This document shows positions 6,678 through 51,704 of a stretch of 64,000 nucleotides of DNA, in pieces. The first letter of the stretch is position 1. Every line of letters begins with the position of its first letter. The position numbers and the translations under genes were made by a program. Source of the stretch: Fistulifera solaris (lineage: Eukaryota > Bacillariophyta > Bacillariophyceae > Naviculales > Stauroneidaceae); assembly GCA_030295235.1 (NCBI GenBank), contig AP026162.1, positions 62,001 to 126,000 on the forward strand, written 5' to 3'. The notes beneath the pieces are model-generated. The model was not told where the DNA came from. It searched no databases and worked only from the letters and a program-made list of their open reading frames with translations.

Positions 6678-7122
6678 GAGGACGTCAAGGGGAATATAAT
6701 CTGGGGTGAATGCTCTGGTCTGTCCGGCGTTCTTTAACCCAAACGCTTGTTTTCGCGATAAGTGACACTTTCCGGGTTACTTCTACAAGTAACACCGTTC
6801 CGAAGTGCGAGAAGAGGCCCACCTTCATAACTAAATATCAAGGTCAGAAAATGGGGCTTAGCTCAGACTCGCTTCAAAAAATCATTTTTCTTCACATGAT
6901 AAAATAACAATGTCAAGAGCAAGTCTGAGCTAAGCCCCATTTTCTTATCTTCATAATCAACACTTAAGATGGTCCATTTTGCCGCGATGCTTCGCGATAC
7001 CTGTTTTGGCCGTCTGCCCTCCCCATAGCGTTTGACTTAAGGGACGCACGTCGGCAAGACGGTGTATTACGGAACCGGTACCCAGAGCAATGACCCCAGA
7101 TTAAATTCCCCTTGAGGACGTC
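6678..7122. mobile_element. 427-bp non-autonomous TIR element (Mutator-like?), with 9-bp TSD
   Basis: The element proper is 6687..7113. Its ends are inverted repeats of 32 bp (6687-6718 and 7082-7113) that match at 29 positions, beginning AAGGGGAATWTAATCTGGGG. Directly outside each end is the same 9-bp word, GAGGACGTC (6678-6686 and 7114-7122), a textbook target-site duplication. It has no coding capacity. A 9-bp duplication is typical of Mutator-like elements, so I infer a MULE-derived MITE; no transposase is present to confirm this. It sits in the promoter gap between SF3B4 and the glutaredoxin gene. Confidence 0.85.
6846..6945. repeat. Inner inverted repeat inside the 427-bp element
   Basis: The arms 6846-6873 and 6918-6945 are inverted copies (AGAAAATGGGGCTTAGCTCA and the next 8 bases) with one mismatch, separated by 44 bp. 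RNA from this stretch would fold into a 28-bp hairpin. It may be a second, nested foldback element or the folded core of the outer element; I find no clear target duplication of its own. Confidence 0.75.
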
Positions 7123-11662: not shown

Positions 11663-13027
11663 GGTACGGGCTTTACACGTAGGCTTCCGTAGGGAAATTT
11701 ATCGACAGAGGGGATACCCGGATATTGCGCAATTTCGATCACACCATTTTTCGCATCTTTTCGACACCAATGTCAACAATACTTTGCCCAACATCGCCTA
11801 TGCATGACATGAAACAATAATCGACCTTATTTTAAAAGTAAAAAGATACAACGCTTCCAATGTCTACACGCAGAGTACGTAGCCGCCGTAGGAAATTTAT
11901 CTCTGTGGGGGTACCCGGATAATTCGTTTTTCGCCGTCACCAATTCTTGAATCTACAGTGCCTAAATGTCGACGTTTGCTTGCGCACCGTATTCGCATTG
12001 TAACAAGAAGCAAAAATCGCCATTGATTTGAAAACAAAACGTTGATGGAACGAATGATGCAACGCTTCGAATGTCTACGTAATTTCACGTAGCTCTGGTA
12101 AGGAAATTTATCGACAGAGGGGATACCCGGATATTGCGAAATTTCGATCACACCATTTTTCGCATCTTTTCGACACCAATGTCAACAATACTTTGCCCAA
12201 CATCGCCTTTGCATGACATGAAACAATAATCGATTTTATTTTGACAGTGAAACAGGAAAAAGTAAAAAGATACAACGCTTCCAATGCCTACACGCAGAGT
12301 TCGTAGCCGTCGTGGGAAATATATCTCTGTTGGGGTACCCGGATATTTCGTTTTTCGCCGTCATCCAATCCTTGACTCTACAGTGCCTAAATGTCGACGT
12401 TTGCTTGCGCACCGTATTCGCATTGTAACAAGAAGCAAAAATCGCCATTGATTTGAAAACAAAACGTTGATGGAACGAATGATGCAACGCTTCGAATGTC
12501 TACGTAATTTCACGTAGCTCTGGTAAGGAAATTTATCGACAGAGGGGATACCCGGATATTGCGCAATTTCGATCACACCATTTTTCGCATCTTTCGACAC
12601 CAATGTCAACAATACTTTGCCCAACATCGCTAATACATTGCATAGAACAATTATCGAACTTGATTCGACACTAAAACATGAAACAGTACAAAGACACAAC
12701 GCTTCCAGTGTCTACGCGCAGAGTACGTAGCATCCGTAGGAAATTTATCTCTGTGGGGGTACCCGGATAATTCGTTTTTTCTTCATCATTTAAATTCATG
12801 GCTTTCCAGTGCAGAAAAGTCAGCATATTCTTACAAACCGCATAAGCATTGTAACAAGAAGCAAAAATCGCTATTGATTTGAAAACAAAACGTTGATGGA
12901 ACGAATGATGCAACGCTTCGAATGTCTACGTAATTTCACGTAGCTCTGGTAAGGAAATTTATCGACAGAGGGGATACCCGGATATTGCGCAATTTCGATC
13001 ACACCTTTTTTCGCATCTTTTCGACGC
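11663..13027. repeat. Tandem satellite, about 424-bp dimeric unit
   Basis: The core AAATTTATCGACAGAGGGGA, followed by TACCCGGATATTG, recurs starting near 11695, 12105, 12528 and 12955. Spacing is 409-427 bp. Between these lies a diverged version reading TTATCTCTGTGGGGGTACCC (near 11893, 12318 and 12745), so each unit is a dimer of two half-units of about 210 bp. Each A-type half from the second unit on is preceded by the near-palindrome CTACGTAATTTCACGTAG. Related copies occur at about 33960-34263 and 43805-44900. Short frames in the array are by-products of the repeat. Confidence 0.88.
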
Positions 13028-13227
13028 CATTAACATGATGAATTTATGCGTTTGTCGGAGATGATTCCCATGAAGATGCGGGAAATAAGCCCTTTCTGTT
13101 GTTATCTCCTTTAAGTGCATCCTTTCTTACACTAGAGAAAAGGTCAACCGACTATATTCGATAATGTAGAAAGAATGTTTAAGCCTTCTCTTATCTAGCG
13201 CGCAAGCCGAAATCTACTTAGACACTA

Positions 13228-17655: not shown

Positions 17656-18129
17656 ATCTTCCTTGGACGTCTCTCCCACGTTAGCAAAAAAATATTTTTC
17701 GTCTCGATACCGAGCAAGTTTTTTACACTTGACTCAAGTTCGGCATAATAATCACCCTTAGATCATTACAAATGAGAACATTTGATCTAGCTCTGACTTA
17801 ATGACAATCAGATGGATCATTTGGAACAATTTAGACCTGCATATCTTCCTATGGCATCTATTTTTATCGATTTTAAGAAGCTAGGGTGTCAACTGAATTT
17901 GATGCTCACTTGTGATGGACGTAAGCTAATCAAAATCTAGATTTTCATCACACCAACGATAACTTTGATCAAAATCATGTGTTTAAAATGATATTTGTTA
18001 ATAGAGAATTAATGAACTTTAATATTCATGATTTCATGGCTGATGACAAGTCACCTTAGCAAAAAAGTTGCTAAGTATCGAGACAAAAAAAATATTCTTG
18101 CTAACTTGGGAGAGATGTCCATCTTCCTT
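17656..18129. mobile_element. 456-bp non-autonomous TIR element with 9-bp TSD
   Basis: The element 17665..18120 is flanked on both sides by ATCTTCCTT (17656-17664 and 18121-18129), a perfect 9-bp target duplication. Its ends are inverted repeats of about 65 bp with a handful of mismatches, beginning GGACRTCTCTCCCAMGTTAG. The interior is AT-rich and has no coding capacity. Its termini are unlike those of the element at 6687, so it is a separate family. The duplication length again suggests a Mutator-like parent, by inference only. Confidence 0.88.
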
Positions 18130-33959: not shown

Positions 33960-34263
33960 ATGCAATGCTGCGACTGTCTACGTGCATTTCACGTAGGCTC
34001 CGTGGGGAAATTTAGCGACGGAGGGGGAACCCGGAGATTGTGTAGTTTTGCATATCCATGTTTTGGGCTTTATGTGACTACAATAATGGCAAAACAATCT
34101 TCACTAGTAACAACAATGATTTGCACTAAAACAAAGATCACAATCGTTTCGAAATCAAAACGTAGAAAAGAGCGAAGATTACAGCGCTTCGAACATCTAC
34201 GTCATTTTCACGTAGGCCCCGTAGGGAAATTTATCGACAGAGGGGAACCCGGATAATTTGACA
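33960..34263. repeat. Two diverged half-units of the satellite found at 11.7-13.0 kb
   Basis: Near 33972-34035 and 34180-34255 the satellite core recurs: CTACGT..TTTCACGTAGG, then GGGAAATTTATCGACAGAGG (first copy TTTAGCGACGGAGG) and GAACCCGGA. The two are about 205 bp apart, equal to one half-unit. The DNA transposon lies about 30 bp beyond the second copy. The upstream part (33610-33960) is the promoter gap of the ECHS1 gene. Confidence 0.75.
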
Positions 34264-34294
34264 ATGGGAGGCGCAGAGCGCAGCGCAGCAATCA

Positions 34295-34425
34295 GGGGAG
34301 ACTTCCGTTAGGTCTCCAACCAGGGTGAACCTCTTCCGATAGCTCTCCCGTTAGGAGAGACGTTAACTGACTACATTCAACTTTACAGTAGAGTACGCGC
34401 CATTGGATGTGGTACTAATTACTTA
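34295..34425 (+). repeat. Left terminal inverted repeat of the Ulp1 transposon
   Basis: 131 bp, from GGGGAGACTTCCGTTAGGTC to TACTAATTACTTA. It matches the reverse complement of 37373-37503 at every position compared. Beyond it the two ends differ. Confidence 0.92.
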
Positions 34426-34519
34426 GAATCTACTTAGGTTGCTCGATAAAGTAACAAAGCCTTATGAATGACAGTCCCGGATGATTCATGAATCACCCCT
34501 CTAAGATAACCAAATCCTC

Positions 34520-34680
34520 AATAAACAATAGTCAGCGAGCGCGACCGCTCTTGATAAAGAAAAAGTCAGCGAAGCGACCGCTCTCAATTGTCAATAAAGA
34601 AAAACCAGCCTACGTGACCCTGATGCAGCGAGCGACCTTCCAATAAAGAAAAAACCCAGCCTACGTGACCTTCCACCGAT
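34520..34680. repeat. Subterminal tandem repeats of the Ulp1 transposon
   Basis: AGTCAGCGA with GCGACCGCTCT and AATAAAGAAAAA recurs with drift about four times, at intervals of roughly 45 bp; the last copies carry CAGCCTACGTGACC. They are present only near the left end. Repeats near one end are often transposase-binding sites; here that is inference. Confidence 0.65.
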
Positions 34681-34789
34681 CAAGGCTTTCGTCGAAAACT
34701 ACTTCGTGTAAATAATCAAAACCCAATCTACACAATTTCAGTTTCAAACTAGACTTGGTTGATTAATATCACACATTACTCTATACGTG

Positions 34790-35490
34790 TCATTCAGCCA
34801 ATTGAAACATAACATCAAATACAAAAGGTCGGAGATCATCTCCGACTCCAATCTCCGAAATAGAGTCAAGGAACCATGTCCTCTCATTGAGGGCACGTCG
34901 ACCATGTTTCAGAATTGTCGCCGCATAAAAACATACATATGGTCCGCAACTATGGCCATCATGTTGCAATAGTTTATTGGGAAGACGCATTTCTTGGTAT
35001 TCCCACGGAGCTTAAATCGGGTAATGTTGATTCCTGCTGCTCGCTTGTTGACGCGCATTCTAATTGCTGCCTCACCGCGACGCAATTTAAATAAACCTGA
35101 AAGCCAGACAGCATTAGAGTAGTGATCGTCCGGATCTTCGAGGGAGTCGAGCGAATAAATAACTCGATTATCGGCATCAACCACCATCAACCACCAGTGC
35201 CTCTCCTTGCACATAGGGAATAAATGAATGCCCAAATTGTTCGATTTTGTCATAGAATTCAATGCCACAAACGCTGAACTAAGCTGCAGTCTACCCTCTC
35301 TCTTAATATTTTGGTTGGCGGAATCCCACAGATTACTCATGACATACGACGGGTGTGCAATAACTCCCTCATCCGTTACGGTCTTGCTTGTTATGCTTTC
35401 AAGGAAACTGTTCACAATCGCGTCATTGAAATAACATTGCGAGTTCATAATTTCAAGGCATTCACTGGTTATGGATGCCGTGGCACCACT
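34790..35490 (-). CDS. Ulp1/SENP-like C48 cysteine protease domain of the transposon
   Basis: The Ulp1 fold is recognisable: an entry segment CYFNDAIVNSFLESI (the usual WLND.IN position), the histidine in KERHWWLMVVDADNRVIYSL followed by the catalytic Asp (SLDSLED), and the oxyanion Gln plus nucleophile Cys in LLQHDGHSCGPYVC. All four catalytic positions are thus present. The frame shifts by one base in a CCC run near 35000, between KKCVF and PNKLLQHDG; one more C restores it. In-frame Met is at 35448, but the reading extends some codons upstream to about 35487 and then stops, so the true N-terminus is probably spliced on or part of the upstream frames. The C-terminus ends DVMFQLAE. Confidence 0.75.
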
Positions 35491-36116
35491 CTAGCACCTT
35501 GATATGATGCTTCTTTCCCTCTTCAGGTCGTGACGACTCAGCGACCTTTATCAACGCCCCCTTTGCACTGGATTGCAAAAAGGAGTGACCGAAGAGATCC
35601 CCTGGCATCTTCTTTGTTGTAAATCAGATCGTTTCCATTCTTTCTTGTCCCTACAGTGATAAATGATTCTATTCCACTTCTTTCCTTTTGCTGTCTCTGC
35701 AAGAGTATTCAGCGCACGTGGATTGCAATATTGTTCTCACTCACAAGTCCTCGCTGGTTTGCGCCCTTGCGTTTTCGGGTTGAAGCCCTTCTTTTCATCG
35801 TTAAATCATTTGTTTCCGTTTCCGTGAAATGATTCTGGAATATCAAACTCGTGTTCTTGAACCAAACAATTTAATTGCTCAATGGTTCCCACAAATGGAT
35901 AAGCTGTGTCGTAAAAATAGGATACGATCTTTGATGGTTCATCAGTAATGACTGGGGGTTGCAAAGGGGCTACTCCAATTTGCCTTACTTGTTGTCGACG
36001 TAATGAAAATTGATTTTCATTTCTGGGATCTACAATCTTACCGTCTCAGGTCGAAGGGTGTTCTCAAGAATTGTGATGAGGTCCCACTAGTGGCAGTAGC
36101 GGGACTTGTTATAGCT
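35491..36116 (-). other. Unresolved part of the transposon gene
   Basis: Minus-strand reading here has protein-like stretches without a start, for example ITDEPSKIVSYFYDTAYPFV followed by GTIEQLNCLVQEHEF, then a basic segment KRRASTRKRKGANQRGL in another frame. They probably link the repeat protein and the Ulp1 domain in one gene, through introns or after frame loss. I could not build a clean model. Confidence 0.45.
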
Positions 36117-37158
36117 CTACGAAGTTCTTCTGGTTTTCGGAATACCCACTGAAAATGAACTTGAGAGCGCTTCATTTTGTGCCAAGTTCTTTCTTCGCAG
36201 ATCTAGCGGCATTTTCAGGAAATGCGACGAATCGTCACTGAGATTACCGGATTTGGCGGGACTTGCATTCTTCTTTTGGATGTCTAATCGCCTTTTAAAT
36301 ACATGTGATGAATCGTCACTAGCAGACGTGGGCGGGACTTGCATTAGTGGGTTCTGTCTTCGGTATCTTTATAATCATATCTTCAGGAATCGTGATACTT
36401 CGGTTGTTGGACTGTTTCGAATGAGATCTTGGCAGTGCTCTCAGATTACCCCTCTTCATAGTTGGCATCTCAACTATGGAAGAAACTGCTGTGGCGGGAC
36501 TTCCTGCTTTTGCTTCTGCAATCGGTGGCGGTTTCAACTTCTTTTTACGGGCATGAGTCGGGCCTTTGGCTCTGGAATTTGCTGTCAGTTTCGATCTTTT
36601 CCTTTTTTGTGTTGTATTCTCATTCATTGAAGACTCGATAGTCAAGGCATGAGCTCTGATATCAGGTGGTGGCTTCAGATTTTGACTCTTCATGGTCGGC
36701 CTCTCAAAGATTGACGAATCAGTTGTGGCGGGACTTGTTCCTTCAGCTTTTTGATTTGGTGGCTGTTTCGGCCGTTTTCCTCTTCTCGTTGCCATTTTGA
36801 CTAATGAAAAATCTGTTGTTGCTGGACTGGAAGCACAAGCTGTTGTGGTCGGCGGTGGTTTCAAATTCGGTCTGGATGCGGTCGCTGTCTTCAATATCGA
36901 TGACTTTGCGGTAGATGGACTTGCCTTCTGCGCTTTTAAATTCGTTACTTGTTTGGATCTCCTCTTTGTTCTAGTTGTTGGCATTTCATTTACTGAATAT
37001 TCTGTTGTTGCGGGACTTGAGGCAAAAGCATTATGTGCGGTGCTTGGTTCCACATCTTCATCCTCTAGAATTGTCGACAGATGACCCGAGTGTGCACCAT
37101 AGAGAAACTTTTCAAAATCATACGGACCGGTTGGAGGAAGTGCCCCATATTTTTGCAT
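36117..37158 (-). CDS. Ser/Pro/Lys-rich repeat protein of the transposon
   Basis: Starts with a good ATG at 37158 (MQKYGALPPTGPYDFEKFLY). Degenerate repeats of about 35-40 residues follow, built on SPATTxxSxxEMPT, then a basic KRxK cluster, then NLKPPP; five or six copies are seen. The first frame closes at 36319 (SPAHVC). A second frame, offset by one base, continues the same style to 36117 (SDDSSHVFKRRLDIQKKNAS, SDDSSHFLKMPLDLRRKN). It looks intrinsically disordered and DNA- or nucleus-directed from its basic clusters. It could be the N-terminal part of the Ulp1 protein. No known family was recognised. Confidence 0.6.
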
Positions 37159-37372
37159 AATCGTGACGAATGATCGTCGCCCTTCGTTTCAATGATCGAC
37201 ATGTTAATGTTGTAAAAGAGCAACAGTAGGAACGGAAGGGCAACTATGACAATAAGGAATGCAGCGTTCTGATCATCTTGTCGGCAGTCGGAGCGGAACA
37301 AACGCACAACGCGAACGATTGTGCGGTTATTGTGCGTGACCTAAGTAGAACTAATGATGGATGGAAGGCCTT

Positions 37373-37503
37373 TAAGTAATTAGTACCACATCCAATGGCG
37401 CGTACTCTACTGTAAAGTTGAATGTAGTCAGTTAACGTCTCTCCTAACGGGAGAGCTATCGGAAGAGGTTCACCCTGGTTGGAGACCTAACGGAAGTCTC
37501 CCC
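37373..37503 (-). repeat. Right terminal inverted repeat of the Ulp1 transposon
   Basis: 131 bp inverted copy of 34295-34425. It ends 78 bp before the nucleoporin start codon, so the transposon replaced or displaced part of that gene's promoter or 5' leader. Confidence 0.92.
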
Positions 37504-37581
37504 AGCAATCATTGCATTGCATTTCATTGCATGACTTTTCATTCCTTTAATAAATAACATCAAATCACACACAGTATTACA

Positions 37582-39021
37582 ATGGCTTTCAATTTCGGAG
37601 GAGGAGCATCGTCGTCGTCATCCGATGGCAATAAAGCGCCAGCATTTTCCTTTGGCGGCAACAGTACAACACCCGCTCCGTCGTTTAGTTTTGGTGGTGC
37701 TCCAGCTCCCTCGACAACCAATGATACGAATAGTACGAGCGGTAGTACGGGAGGTTTTTTGTTTGGAGGAGCACCGGCGGCTGCTTCTGCAGGAAATTCT
37801 TTTTCGTTTGGGGGAGCAGCGAGTAGTAGCGCCGCCACGCCGGCACCATCCGCTGCACCTTCCTTCAGTTCCTTTGGAGCAACAACAAGCGACAGCAAAT
37901 CAACGGCACCGTCTTTCGGAGGCTTCGGAGCAGCGAGTGACGAAAAGGCCACAACGGCAGCCTCGACAACCGCGCCGTCGTTTGGGTCCTTCGGAGCATC
38001 AACAAATGCCGACACCGGTGCCTTTGCGTTTGGCTCGAGTGCTTCTTCGGAAAAGGCTGCTCCTGCGACGAATGATGCTCCAAAAGCACCTCCCGCATTT
38101 GGCGCTGCTCCGGCCGGAACTGCGTTTAGCTTTGGTGGAAGTGGAGATGCAGGAGCAGCTCCGTCGAGTAAACGGAACGAGTCGGTATCCTTTGGAGCTA
38201 CTGCAACGACCTCTGCGACGGAGAAAGCGGCGCCTGGTGCATTTAGTTTCGGAGGCAGTGACAGCGGAGCACCCTCGCAAAGCAATAAACGTGCCTCCTT
38301 TGGAAATGATGAAGACTCGGTCCCAGCGGGTGTTTCGACACCGGCTTCGAAACCAACCACTACCTTCCCAACGGCATCGACTCCTACTGCACCTCCTCCC
38401 GTGTCGACGCCCGCCAAGGTGGATGCGACACCTCGCAAAGCCGCCACGGAACCACCGCGTCTCGAGTATCAAACATTGACGGTCGAACAAATCATCAACA
38501 AGTTTCAGAAAGAATTGGAACAGGACGCTGTTGCCTTTCTTGAAGAAGCCCGCCGTGTCGCCGAGTATGATGCCATTTTGCGAGATTCGCAGCGTGATAT
38601 TGTCAAATTGACGCAATTGGCGCATCACACATTGATTGGACAACAGGAGTTGGAGCAAATGCTCAACGGTATCGACGCTTTTCAGCGGGAACTCGAGACG
38701 ACACTCAATACGGTAGAACAACATGTGGAAGATTTGTTTCAAGCGCAGTCACATCAATTACCAGCTGATGCGGACATGGAACGAGAGAAGGCGTATGCCA
38801 CAGCGAGTGCGGTTGAACAACGACTTCAAGAATTGTCCGAGTCGCTCGAAACCGTGTTGGGAGAAATGGATGTGACACAGCAACGAGTACTGACCGGAGA
38901 CACGGGAAAGATTGTCCAGATTCTAAATCAGCACGAAAAGAGTTTAGCTGATTTGGAAACAGCCGCGCGACGTATGGAATTAGATGTGGGGCATGTCAGT
39001 AAGCTATTGGAACGTCGCTAA
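37582..39021 (+). CDS. NUP62: Nucleoporin Nup62/Nsp1
   Basis: Central-channel nucleoporin of 479 residues. Residues 1-300 are a low-complexity Ser/Thr/Ala region with many FG motifs (FNFGGG, FSFGGN, SFGGF, FGSF, FSFGGS) that bind transport receptors. The rest is the coiled-coil Nsp1_C domain, beginning LEYQTLTVEQIINKFQKELE and continuing through ILRDSQRDIVKLTQLAHHTL and RRMELDVGHVSKLLERR, which forms the Nup62-Nup58-Nup54 complex. The frame is intact with no intron. The ATG lies 78 bp after a recent transposon insertion. Confidence 0.93.
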   Translation: MAFNFGGGASSSSSDGNKAPAFSFGGNSTTPAPSFSFGGAPAPSTTNDTNSTSGSTGGFLFGGAPAAASAGNSFSFGGAASSSAATPAPSAAPSFSSFGATTSDSKSTAPSFGGFGAASDEKATTAASTTAPSFGSFGASTNADTGAFAFGSSASSEKAAPATNDAPKAPPAFGAAPAGTAFSFGGSGDAGAAPSSKRNESVSFGATATTSATEKAAPGAFSFGGSDSGAPSQSNKRASFGNDEDSVPAGVSTPASKPTTTFPTASTPTAPPPVSTPAKVDATPRKAATEPPRLEYQTLTVEQIINKFQKELEQDAVAFLEEARRVAEYDAILRDSQRDIVKLTQLAHHTLIGQQELEQMLNGIDAFQRELETTLNTVEQHVEDLFQAQSHQLPADADMEREKAYATASAVEQRLQELSESLETVLGEMDVTQQRVLTGDTGKIVQILNQHEKSLADLETAARRMELDVGHVSKLLERR

Positions 39022-39128: not shown

Positions 39129-41512
39129 TTGATCATGGAGAAAATCTGGAGACATTCCAGAAATTCTGGAATTGGTGTATTGCATCATACAGAAATGCTG
39201 GATAAGTTCCAGAAATTCTGGAATCGGCTTATTTTATCATAAAAAAGTTCTGACACATTCCAGAAATTGTGGAGACGGTGTTAATGATCCAGCACAAATA
39301 ATTATGTGCAAGTTCCAGCAATTTTCGGCACGGTACCAGTATCTTGATCATAGAGAAATTCTGGAGACATTCCAGATATTCTGGAAATGGCGCATTGCAT
39401 CAGGCAGAAATTCTGGATTCTGGATACGTTCCAGAAATTCTGGAATCGGCTTATTTTATCATACAAAAGTTCTTGACACATTCCAGAAATTGTGGAGACG
39501 GTAATTATGATCCAACACAAATTATGTGCAAGTTCCAGCAATTTTCGGCACGGTGTCTTGATCATCGTGAATTTCTGGAGACATTCCAGATATTCTGGAA
39601 TTGGTGTATTGCATCAGGCAGAAATTCTGGATTCTGGATACGTTCCAGAAATTCTGGAATAGGCAAATTTCATCATACAAAAGTTCTTGACACATTCCAG
39701 AAATTGTGGAGACGGTAATTATGATCCCGCACAGATTATGTGCTAGTTCCAGCAATTTTCGGCACGGTATCTTGATCATCGTGAATTTCTGGAGACATTC
39801 CAGAAATTCTGGAATTGGTGTATTGCATCAGGCAGAAATTCTGGATTCTGGATACGTTCCAGAAATTCTGGAATCGGCATATTTCATCATACAAAAGTTC
39901 TTGACACATTCCAGAAAATGTGGAGACGGTGTTTATGATCCAACACAAATTATGTGCAAGTTCCAGCAATTTTCGGCACGGTACCAGTATCTTGATCATA
40001 GAGAAATTCTGGAGACATTCCAGATATTCTGGAAATGGCGCATTGCATCAGGCAGAAATTCTGGATTCTGGATACGTTCCAGAAATTCTGGAATCGGCTT
40101 ATTTTATCATACAAAAGTTCTTGACACATTCCAGAAATTGTGTGAGACGGTGTTAATGATCCCGCACAGATTATGTGCTAGTTCCAGCAATTTTCGGCAC
40201 GGTGTCTTGATCATCGTGAATTTCTGAAGACATTCCAGAAATTCTGGAATTGGAATATTGCATCATACAGAAATTCTGGTTTCTGGATACGTTCCAGAAA
40301 TTCTGGAATAGGCATATTGTATCATACAAAAGTTCTTGACACATTCCAGAGATTAGCAATTATCGGAACGGTATCTTGATCTTCGTGCATTTCTGGAGAC
40401 ATTCCAGATATTCTGGTTTCTGGATACGTTCCAGAAATTCTGGAATAGGCATATTGTATCATACAAAAGTTCTTGACACATTCCAGAAATTGTGGAGACG
40501 GTGTTAATGATCCCGCACAGATTATGTGCTAGTTCCAGCAATTTTCGGCACGGTATCTTGATCATCGTGAATTTCTGGAGACATTCCAGAAATTCTGGAA
40601 TTGGTGTATTGCATCAGGCAGAAATTCTGGATTCTGGATACGTTCCAGAAATTCTGGAATAGGCATATTATATCATACAAAAGTGCTTGACACATCCAGA
40701 AATTGTGGAGACGGTGTTAATGATCCAGCACAAATAATTATGTGCAAGTTCCAGCAATTTTCGGCACGGTACCAGTATCTTGATCATAGAGAAATTCTGG
40801 AGACATTCCAGAAATTCTGGAATTGGTGTATTGCATCATACAGAAATTCTGGATTCTGGATACGTTCCAGAAATTCTGGAATAGGCAAATTTCATCATAC
40901 AAAAGTTCTTGACACATTCCAGAAATTGTGGAGACGGTAATTATGATCCCGCACAGATTATGTGCTAGTTCCAGCAATTTTCGGCACGGTGTCTTGATCA
41001 TCGTGAATTTCTGGAGACATTCCAGAAATTCTGGAATTGGTGTATTGCATCATACAGAAATTCTGGATTCTGGATACGTTCCAGAAATTCTGGAATAGGC
41101 ATATTGTATCATACAAAAGTTCTTGACACATTCCAGAGATTGTGGAGACGGTGTTTATGATCCAACACAAATTATGTGCTAGTTCCAGCAATTTTCGGCA
41201 CGGTGTCTTGATCATCGTGAATTTCTGGAGACATTCCAGATATTCTGGAATTGGTGTATTGCATCATACAGAAAATCTGGATTCTGGATACGTTCCAGAA
41301 ATTCTGGAATCGGCACATTTTATCATACAAAAGTGCTTGACACATTCCAGAAATTGGGGAGACGGTGTTTATGATCGGTGCAAGTTCCAGCAATTGTCGG
41401 CACGGTACTTTGAAATCATAGTGAATTTCTGGAGACATTCCAGATATTCTGGAATTGGTGTATTGCATCATACAGAAAATCTGGATATGTTCCAGGAATT
41501 CTGAATACGGTG
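39129..41512. repeat. Satellite of about 214 bp built from TTCCAGAA palindromes
   Basis: About twelve units begin at TTGATCA near 39129, 39354, 39558, 39772, 39992, 40206, 40375, 40558, 40780, 40994, 41208 and 41410. Spacing is mostly 202-225 bp; two units are shortened to 170-182. Each unit has the perfect 17-bp palindrome TTCCAGAAATTCTGGAA once or twice, plus several half or near copies (ACATTCCAGATATTCTGGAA, GTTCCAGCAATTTTCGG). The array is open in several frames on both strands only because the unit lacks stops; the translations are repetitive and I call no gene. It fills the gap between NUP62 and the glycosidase gene. Confidence 0.92.
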
Positions 41513-43804: not shown

Positions 43805-43927
43805 TGCAGAGCTTCGAATGTCTACGTAATTTCACGTGGCTCCCGTAGGGAAATTTATCGACAGAGGGGATACCCGGATATTGAGCAATTTCGATCACAC
43901 CATTTTTCGCATCTTTTCGACACCAAT
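43805..43927. repeat. Satellite half-unit, left part (interrupted)
   Basis: Matches the 11.7-13.0 kb satellite: CTACGTAATTTCACGTGG, AAATTTATCGACAGAGGGGA, then GCAATTTCGATCACACCATT up to CGACACCAAT. It is cut there by the 884-bp element and resumes at 44812. Confidence 0.85.
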
Positions 43928-44819
43928 TAAGGACGTATAAAAATGTAAGGACGTGGAGCGTTTCTGGAGGTTATGACACCCTGAGCGCTGAATCGCAGTC
44001 CGTCATGACACCGGTTTTCAATACATTTCTACAGCCCGTCTTGATTTTCGTACATGCGATAATTACCGGACCCGAGGGGGCGAAAACGCATCTTCATTAC
44101 GTGAAATAACACGTGCAACCGACCATATTGGATTCAACTATTTTATATTGATTCTCAACTATCTTTGAATCTAATTCTTGTTTTAATCTACTTTAAAAAA
44201 TATTGGAATGTTGTGGTATGCTTGTTGTTAAAGGAATCAATAAAATGGCGGCTCATAAGAAAGATTGGCTATTATTGCTTGCACCCCTACTTTTATAAGT
44301 GCACTTATTCAATCGTCTTGGAGTAAACTCCTATATATTTTTTTAGGAAAATGAAGTTTAAAAGCTATATTGTCAGTTTAGTCAACTGCATCGCCATTTA
44401 CCGTTTCCGCTGGTAGTGTGAACCTTGCCCATGGTAAGGGCTGGAGAATTGTTGAGAAGGCACTGTTCAATTCTAACCTTTTCGGTCGACCACAGAAGCA
44501 TTTTCCAACCGGACCTCTCAACCGTCCTCAACTAGTGACTATAGAAGCTTTGTAGATTAAAAGATAACAATAACAATACATATTTCGATCAAAAGAGATC
44601 GTTTCTGTTGTGGTCCAAATTGCGCGCTTTTTCACGTAAATGAAGGCTCGTTTTCTCCACCGGGGTCCGGAAATTATCGCATGCACGAAAAATGAGATGG
44701 ACAAAAAACGGTGTGATAACAGACTGCGATTCAGCGCTCAGGCAGGGTGACACGGATTTATCACGGATCTTGTGCGTGCGCCCCGCGTCCTTACATTTTT
44801 ATACGTCCTTAACACCAAT
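43920..44819. mobile_element. 884-bp TIR element inserted in a satellite copy, 8-bp TSD
   Basis: The element 43928..44811 has perfect 26-bp terminal inverted repeats starting TAAGGACGTATAAAAATGTA, with ACACCAAT duplicated on both sides (43920-43927 and 44812-44819). The empty site is known, because the satellite at 11.7-13.0 kb reads CGACACCAATGTCAAC without interruption. Inside the ends a longer imperfect inverted repeat reaches about 190-200 bp on each side (TGAGCGCTGAATCGCAGTC and CATGCGATAATT.CCGGACC on both arms). There is no coding capacity. The 8-bp duplication fits hAT-like or related elements; the family is uncertain. Confidence 0.9.
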
Positions 44820-50276: not shown

Positions 50277-51353
50277 TTATAACCATAAGCATTCGATATT
50301 AATGCGAAATGAATTGACAATGGCTTCTGCCGTGTCCCTTTCTATTCCTCCTGCTTCAAACTTGACCGCATTAATCGAAGTCATCATCATGTACACATCT
50401 CCCGTGGGCGTGACTTCGTAGGCATCCACCAAAGCTCGACGCTCTACCCGCAGTCCATTTCCGGTGACAGTATAGTATTTGATTTGAAAGCGCCGCCGTG
50501 TAGCACACATATCATTGGGACACTCCGTCAATACCTTACTTGACGTGACTTTGTATTCATCCACTTCAACACCTTGGCTTTTCACAATGACTCCTTGCGG
50601 ATCAAAGATACTGCTGCCCATGAACTTCTTGTTGATCGTCGCCAATCGTTCTCCGTCGGGCAATTTGGTGCGCAGCACATAGAGACGATCTCCATTGCGC
50701 TGATCGACGTATGTAATACCTCCTAGAAACTTGTCCAATTGCAACCAATCCGACGGAAATTCAAAGGTAATCGACAGGGATCGCTGTTGCAAATTGCTCG
50801 GTGCAACGACTTGATCGTCGTAACGAAACAAATTCCCCAGAGGACCGGTTCGCGTTAAACGTGGTGTCAAGCCGGGTGCCGCACGGTACGCCCAGGAAGC
50901 AATAGTTCCCTGTTCCTCGACATCCAGAGAAGGACGGTTGCTGGCCGCCAACGATGGTTGTGAACTGGTGGTCGATGAGGTAATTTCTTTGAGTTGATTT
51001 GCTCGTGACGCAGCCGAGCCGTCGTACGCTTTCAGTTGCTCCTTCAATGTAGGATTTCCTCCTCCGCCGTCGGTTCGCAATCCAGAGACGTCAATGCCGG
51101 CAGAAGCGGATTGTGCGGTTATGGTGGAAACCAGGAGAGTAACGGCTGTAATAAAATTGCGACGACTGTACAGGTCGGCTTCTTTTCTGTCCTTTGACAT
51201 AAAAAGAGGCTTTCGTTTGTTGTGTAAAGCATGATGTTTGGAGCATGAGGATGGTTGTGAGAATATTGGATGTGAAAAGCCGTGTGCCGACGGTGCGAAG
51301 AACAAAACGGCGAACCCAACAAGGCGCGTCAGTTTAGGGAGTTCGGAAAGCAT
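50277..51353 (-). CDS. PsbP-domain protein of the thylakoid lumen
   Basis: 358 residues. The targeting region has three parts: a signal peptide (LVGFAVLFFAPSAHG) with Phe directly after it (GFSHPIF), as in heterokont plastid presequences; a basic transit stretch; and a twin-arginine signal (SRRNFITAVTLLVSTITAQS, ending SASA) for Tat export to the lumen. The mature part has the PsbP fold: SITFEFPSDWLQLDKFLGGI, VDQRNGDRLYVLRTKLPDGE, and a late DVYMMMTSINAVKF strand. PsbP and PsbP-like proteins support photosystem II or its assembly. I prefer the ATG at 51353, since the one at 51479 would bury the signal peptide. It diverges from the SANT gene at 51705. Confidence 0.87.
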   Translation of the reverse strand: MLSELPKLTRLVGFAVLFFAPSAHGFSHPIFSQPSSCSKHHALHNKRKPLFMSKDRKEADLYSRRNFITAVTLLVSTITAQSASAGIDVSGLRTDGGGGNPTLKEQLKAYDGSAASRANQLKEITSSTTSSQPSLAASNRPSLDVEEQGTIASWAYRAAPGLTPRLTRTGPLGNLFRYDDQVVAPSNLQQRSLSITFEFPSDWLQLDKFLGGITYVDQRNGDRLYVLRTKLPDGERLATINKKFMGSSIFDPQGVIVKSQGVEVDEYKVTSSKVLTECPNDMCATRRRFQIKYYTVTGNGLRVERRALVDAYEVTPTGDVYMMMTSINAVKFEAGGIERDTAEAIVNSFRINIECLWL

Positions 51354-51704
51354 TTGGAAGAAGGTAAAGTGTAACGTATTATCTTGCTTTTTCTTGGTAT
51401 TGCATTGTTGTGTGGTTAATAATGATAGAAAAGGACATGCCGATCGACGATTATCGACTGACGAATAAGTTTTCGCCATCAGCTCATGGGACTGACCGAA
51501 ATTCCAGTCCCGGTAAATCGTCTGGTAGGCGTCCGTACTGAGTTACCGCACCGCCGCGCTGCGTTTTGCTCGCGTTGACCGTTTTTTATTGCTCTGCAAA
51601 ATGCTTTGCACTCCTTCTTGTTAGAAAAAAGAGAACAACCACGAGCGCTTACATTTATATTGACTTCTCTTTACTCTTATTCTTATCAATTAACGAAAGA
51701 TCTT

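Follow-up and report, generated by a model that had tools for sequence, protein, structure and literature searches.

In a 64,000-nt stretch of the Fistulifera solaris genome (hereafter, the window), we identified a DNA transposon of 3,209 bp, termed element A (positions 34295-37503), the sole recognisable cargo of which is a predicted SUMO-protease-like gene of the SENP/Ulp1 type. We read it as a recently inserted, non-autonomous cut-and-paste element, probably Mutator-like (MULE), that was moved in trans, and we put the probability of this reading at roughly 55%. Non-autonomy and movement in trans are proposed because long, identical ends and an 8-bp duplication enclose a cargo without transposase; amongst the known groups, MULEs are favoured because the length of the duplication and the long terminal inverted repeats (TIRs) fit them. 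A first-pass annotation of the same DNA had already described a transposon with an Ulp1-like gene and without a recognisable transposase: the ends, the duplication and the score of the joined protease domain support this description, but the gene is not simply intact. The features of the locus are as follows.

34287-34294, no strand: left target-site duplication, AGCAATCA (from the sequence)
34295-34425, plus strand: left terminal inverted repeat, 131 bp, starting GGGGAGACTTCCG (end comparison)
34513-34731, no strand: short direct repeats, in pairs of 14 to 34 nt, within a sub-terminal non-coding stretch
34790-35010, minus strand: predicted last exon, with Gln and Cys of the C48 site (QHDGHSCG), then a stop
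35011-35096, minus strand: predicted 86-nt intron, CAG/GTTTAT ... TTTAAG/CTC, which raises the Peptidase_C48 score
35097-35490, minus strand: predicted exon encoding His (ERHWW) and Asp (YSLDSL) in the N-terminal half of the C48 domain
35491-36368, minus strand: coding-like stretch in which the frame shifts repeatedly (frame inspection and repeat-unit test)
36319-37188, minus strand: 289-aa open reading frame (ORF) with degenerate SPATT-type repeats, without Pfam match
37373-37503, minus strand: right terminal inverted repeat, 131 bp (end comparison)
37504-37511, no strand: right target-site duplication, AGCAATCA (from the sequence)
37582-39021, plus strand: NSP1/NUP62-type nucleoporin gene, Nsp1_C 52.1 bits (Pfam)

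Ends and target-site duplication of element A

The TIRs of element A are complementary at 131 of 131 sites, with a mismatch at base 132 and no similarity beyond, and the 8-bp AGCAATCA lies directly outside each end; the mismatch-free ends and the direct duplication claimed in the first-pass annotation are thus both confirmed. The whole window was searched for 12-bp inverted repeats (at most one mismatch; span of at most 8 kb) with an exact 8-bp duplication directly outside them. Three places emerged, namely element A, element B and a structure nested within element C; five single-base shuffles of the window yielded zero each. The perfect ends, the flanking AGCAATCA and the empty shuffles together make it very likely that element A results from a genuine transposition event. 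The absence of differences over 131 sites limits the divergence between the TIRs to less than 2.3% at 95%, so that the earlier label “young” is fair, but the dating is loose.

When the window was searched with a 30-base piece of the end, allowing up to three mismatches, the two matches were the element's own pair. Within the window we saw no second copy of the ends, no partner transposase and no paralogous empty site for element A, and all of these results count against our preferred reading. A hairpin role of the TIR was rejected: its folding is no better than that of shuffled sequences (z −0.81; 45 of 200 as good). None of 500 shuffles was as rich in direct repeats as the sub-terminal stretch (34513-34731), but 8 of the 166 controls, taken from elsewhere in the window, equal it; Tandem Repeats Finder gave no tandem array there.

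A Peptidase_C48 domain split over two frames

Recognisable coding sequence in element A is confined to the minus strand, where the Peptidase_C48 domain is split over two frames at the 3′ end of the gene region. The ORF at 34909-35490 (minus strand) contains the His and the Asp and covers profile positions 82-120 (18.5 bits), and the ORF at 34790-35011 (minus strand) contains the Gln and the Cys and covers positions 158-183 (12.3 bits). Both unjoined pieces score under the Pfam cut-off of 20.7 bits, which is passed only by the exon-joined reading across the predicted intron (27.6 bits; E 3.2e-6). With this intron, one of six in-frame GT-AG choices, the reading passes from one frame to the other without meeting a stop; a short intron is credible here, the ABC-transporter host gene in the window having one of 64 nt. 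His, Asp, Gln and Cys stand in catalytic order, and all four are aligned with a solved bacterial SUMO protease, which is the nearest solved structure to the C48 reading (E 0.0057), together with SENP2 (E 0.022). The Ulp1/C48 domain with its four residues, as annotated at first pass, is therefore real; it is, however, not simply intact, as it occupies two frames and needs the predicted intron.

The first-pass annotation also listed a separate repeat-rich protein. We infer that this 289-aa ORF is likely the N-terminal part of the C48 gene instead. Between about 36.37 and 35.49 kb, seven frame changes were counted by eye. One of these changes is supported by a test, in which repeat units in frame 2 and in frame 3 aligned better than every one of 1000 shuffles; of the unit comparisons made, U2/U3 and U1/U2 were each matched by 0 of 1000, U3 and the N-terminal ORF by 7 of 1000, and U2 and that ORF by 168 of 1000, which is not significant. 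When codon usage was profiled with 25 host ORFs as the training set, no single frame stood out along the gene, a point against our reading.

The frame changes at 35491-36368 could be undetected introns, decay or assembly indels. Host ORFs show three single-base frame breaks in about 30 kb (near 1236, 52835 and 53701, found by eye), which sit at short base runs within otherwise coherent ORFs and are either assembly indels or real. Given these host breaks, assembly indels could account for a few of the frame changes in element A, where the density of breaks is higher than in the host genes. Decay of the C48 gene in this copy is likely, but we rejected the frame breaks as certain proof of it, as host genes carry three of them and short introns exist.

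Search for a transposase and for relatives

The search for a transposase covered the 19 stop-to-stop ORFs of at least 60 aa inside element A and used Pfam alone, at E up to 1. None was detected in any of the 19, in keeping with the “no visible transposase” of the first-pass annotation and as expected for any non-autonomous element. The other sub-threshold matches, DUF6347 (E 0.17) and Baculo_11_kDa (E 0.054), were put down to chance. In IMG/VR viral contigs, one pattern match for the C48 ORF and 20 for the N-terminal ORF were obtained, none of which was confirmed as a relative, and TIR pieces of 18 and 29 bases had no exact match there. Five bacterial records amongst the GTDB contigs match a 16-base TIR piece; the matches extend over just 16-19 bases and were dismissed as chance.

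Host neighbourhood and other repeats in the window

Element A is inserted just upstream of the NSP1/NUP62-type gene, the ATG of which lies 70 bp past the right duplication; the fresh insertion falls within the promoter region of this nucleoporin gene. SUMO proteases act at nucleoporins in other organisms. Other neighbours identified with Pfam include histone deacetylase, PF03407 glycosyltransferase, ABC transporter, prenyltransferase, DUF1415 and kinase genes. The ORF at 50277-51542, without a Pfam family at E 0.01, has a start (..SAHGFSHP) that resembles what we take to be the motif of a secondary-plastid signal. The host would accordingly be a photosynthetic stramenopile, perhaps a diatom.

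Element B (43928-44811) is an 884-bp TIR element with the 8-bp duplication ACACCAAT, the ends of which are perfect over 26 bp and then imperfect. Joining its two flanks gives a sequence that matches, over the junction, three empty paralogous sites within the 424-bp array (91.6-94.4% identity): element B is a second family with an 8-bp duplication, and its insertion is proven. Two further elements are MITE-like, with 9-bp duplications: element C (17665-18120; about 456 bp; duplication ATCTTCCTT), with imperfect TIRs starting GGACRTCTCTCCCA, and element D (6687-7113; 427 bp; duplication GAGGACGTC), with TIRs starting AAGGGGAATWTAATCTGGGGT. A relationship of the ends of element A to those of B, C and D was rejected (scores of 8-13.5; 95% level of 14.5 in shuffles made solely against the left end of C), which also counts against our reading. 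A dispersed repeat around CTACGTNATTTCACGTAG occurs at 11689-13029, 33967-34265 and 43807-43889; it makes up a 424-bp tandem array (3.2 copies) and is also found just to the left of elements A and B. Just 3′ of the nucleoporin gene, two long AGAAATTCTGGA-rich arrays with a 214-bp period and a 52-bp sub-period extend over 39129-41486.

Alternative explanations

The first-pass annotation left the choice between a new family and a non-autonomous form; the latter fits better, but neither is proved. An autonomous element of a new family would need a transposase hidden in the repeat-rich 289-aa region, which indeed has no Pfam match; that region is, however, of low complexity, consists of degenerate SPATT repeats and, with Pfam alone, gave no hint of a catalytic domain, DDE-type or otherwise, which makes such an element very improbable. 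Still more remote is an assembly artefact in which the inverted ends were produced by duplication: the breaks in the host ORFs indicate that the assembly may contain indels, but a fold-back would not yield an exact 8-bp duplication at both ends, different outer sequences and 2.9 kb of unique interior.

More serious competitors concern the enzyme and the cargo. The 8-bp duplication is compatible with KDZ and hAT as well as with MULEs, a point against our reading. For hAT, the TIRs are too long (131 bp versus the 8-23 bp given for the grapevine families in the source consulted). Mobilisation of the same non-autonomous type by a KDZ/Zisupton-type transposase is rather unlikely, though not far-fetched: Zisupton, as described in the accessible text, combines 8-bp duplications with TIRs, and KDZ elements with accessory genes are reported to be abundant in the stramenopile Ectocarpus. 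On the other hand, element A has no KDZ transposase, and the CA..TG ends without TIRs ascribed to Kyakuja differ from its GGGG ends. The first-pass annotation assigned Ulp1 genes to KDZ/Zisupton elements, but the portions of the KDZ and Zisupton literature searched mention Ulp1 with neither; its assignment of Ulp1 to Mutator-like elements was borne out by the published excerpts. A Pack-type capture, in which part of a host SUMO-protease gene was acquired accidentally and plays no role in transposition, is a sizeable possibility, if short of an even chance, and this and our preferred explanation are not mutually exclusive. The predicted intron, the upstream frame changes and the lack of further cargo are consistent with capture, while the catalytic domain itself reads cleanly after splicing, and the recurrence of Ulp1 in unrelated transposons, as far as the sources consulted describe it, argues for selection.

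Proposed mechanism and meaning

For a non-autonomous, probably Mutator-like element, we propose that a transposase encoded elsewhere in the genome would bind the long identical ends, excise the element in trans and reinsert it with an 8-bp duplication. An ancestor may have gained the Ulp1 gene as genomic DNA, given that the intron is apparently retained. The protease may once have desumoylated the transposase or silencing chromatin, thereby aiding the spread of the family; in this copy, it may now be a mere passenger, as the upstream coding part looks frame-broken.

A more speculative scenario, which we consider improbable, draws on Arabidopsis. VANC proteins are described as anti-silencing factors that bind to tandem repeats located in the non-coding portions of their own elements, and Ulp1 is present in some VANC genes, according to the excerpts available. 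By analogy with this VANC/KIU anti-silencing, but in an alga, a family that has lost its transposase might keep Ulp1 as a de-silencer that removes SUMO from the silencing chromatin on every copy sharing these ends, with the repeat-rich part perhaps directing it to the short repeats located at 34.5-34.7 kb; such a helper would both parasitise and pay for its autonomous partner.

Ulp1/SUMO-protease genes recur in unrelated transposons for reasons that are unsettled; according to the accessible part of a 2026 review, what the Ulp1 domain does there is unknown. A short element with identical ends and Ulp1 as its only recognisable gene would be a clean test case: should different copies preserve C48 but retain no transposase, the benefit would have to come from the protease itself.

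Comparison with known systems

Our literature search found no report of an Ulp1-only TIR element from a diatom, which does not prove that none exists. MULEs are characterised in the published excerpts by 8-11 bp duplications and long TIRs; the 8-bp duplication of element A falls within that range, and its 131-bp TIRs fit the long TIRs (often >100 bp) of the group. The MULE-Diatoms row in one of the sources gives TIRs of 123-124 bp, with neither a duplication length nor Ulp1, the latter two being points against our reading. Ulp1 domains are reported, in the text available, from MULEs of hydra, lancelet, Arabidopsis, maize, rice and melon, from TIR and non-TIR MULEs alike in grapevine, and from the KAONASHI/KIU group. 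KAONASHI and KIU, Ulp1-carrying MULEs of Arabidopsis with similar elements in melon, rice and grapevine, likewise have a C48/ULP cargo in which Ulp1 stands beside an extra N-terminal part; the Mutator-type context would be common to both, but is only suspected for element A. The KI elements are described as non-TIR MULEs with a transposase, whereas element A has long, perfect TIRs and none was seen.

Two other systems share the protease. Ginger1, as far as its description is accessible, is also a DNA transposon with TIRs (about 40-270 bp) and an Ulp1 domain, but it has 4-bp CCGG/CCGT duplications, TGTNR ends and an Ulp1 domain fused to the transposase; element A has an 8-bp duplication and GGGG ends. 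CryptonF and CryptonS similarly place a C48 peptidase on mobile DNA in stramenopiles; in the excerpts consulted, however, Cryptons use a tyrosine recombinase, and CryptonS has 5- or 6-bp terminal direct repeats and no long TIRs.

The association of TIRs with genes other than a transposase links element A to Pack-MULEs and to elements of the brown alga Ectocarpus, in which, according to the available text, some families carry only genes that lack homology to a transposase and are taken to be non-autonomous and mobilised in trans. The Ectocarpus elements are giant, whereas element A measures 3.2 kb and carries Ulp1. Element A thus resembles gene-carrying transposons known from plants and brown algae, and its combination of features is of an already known type.
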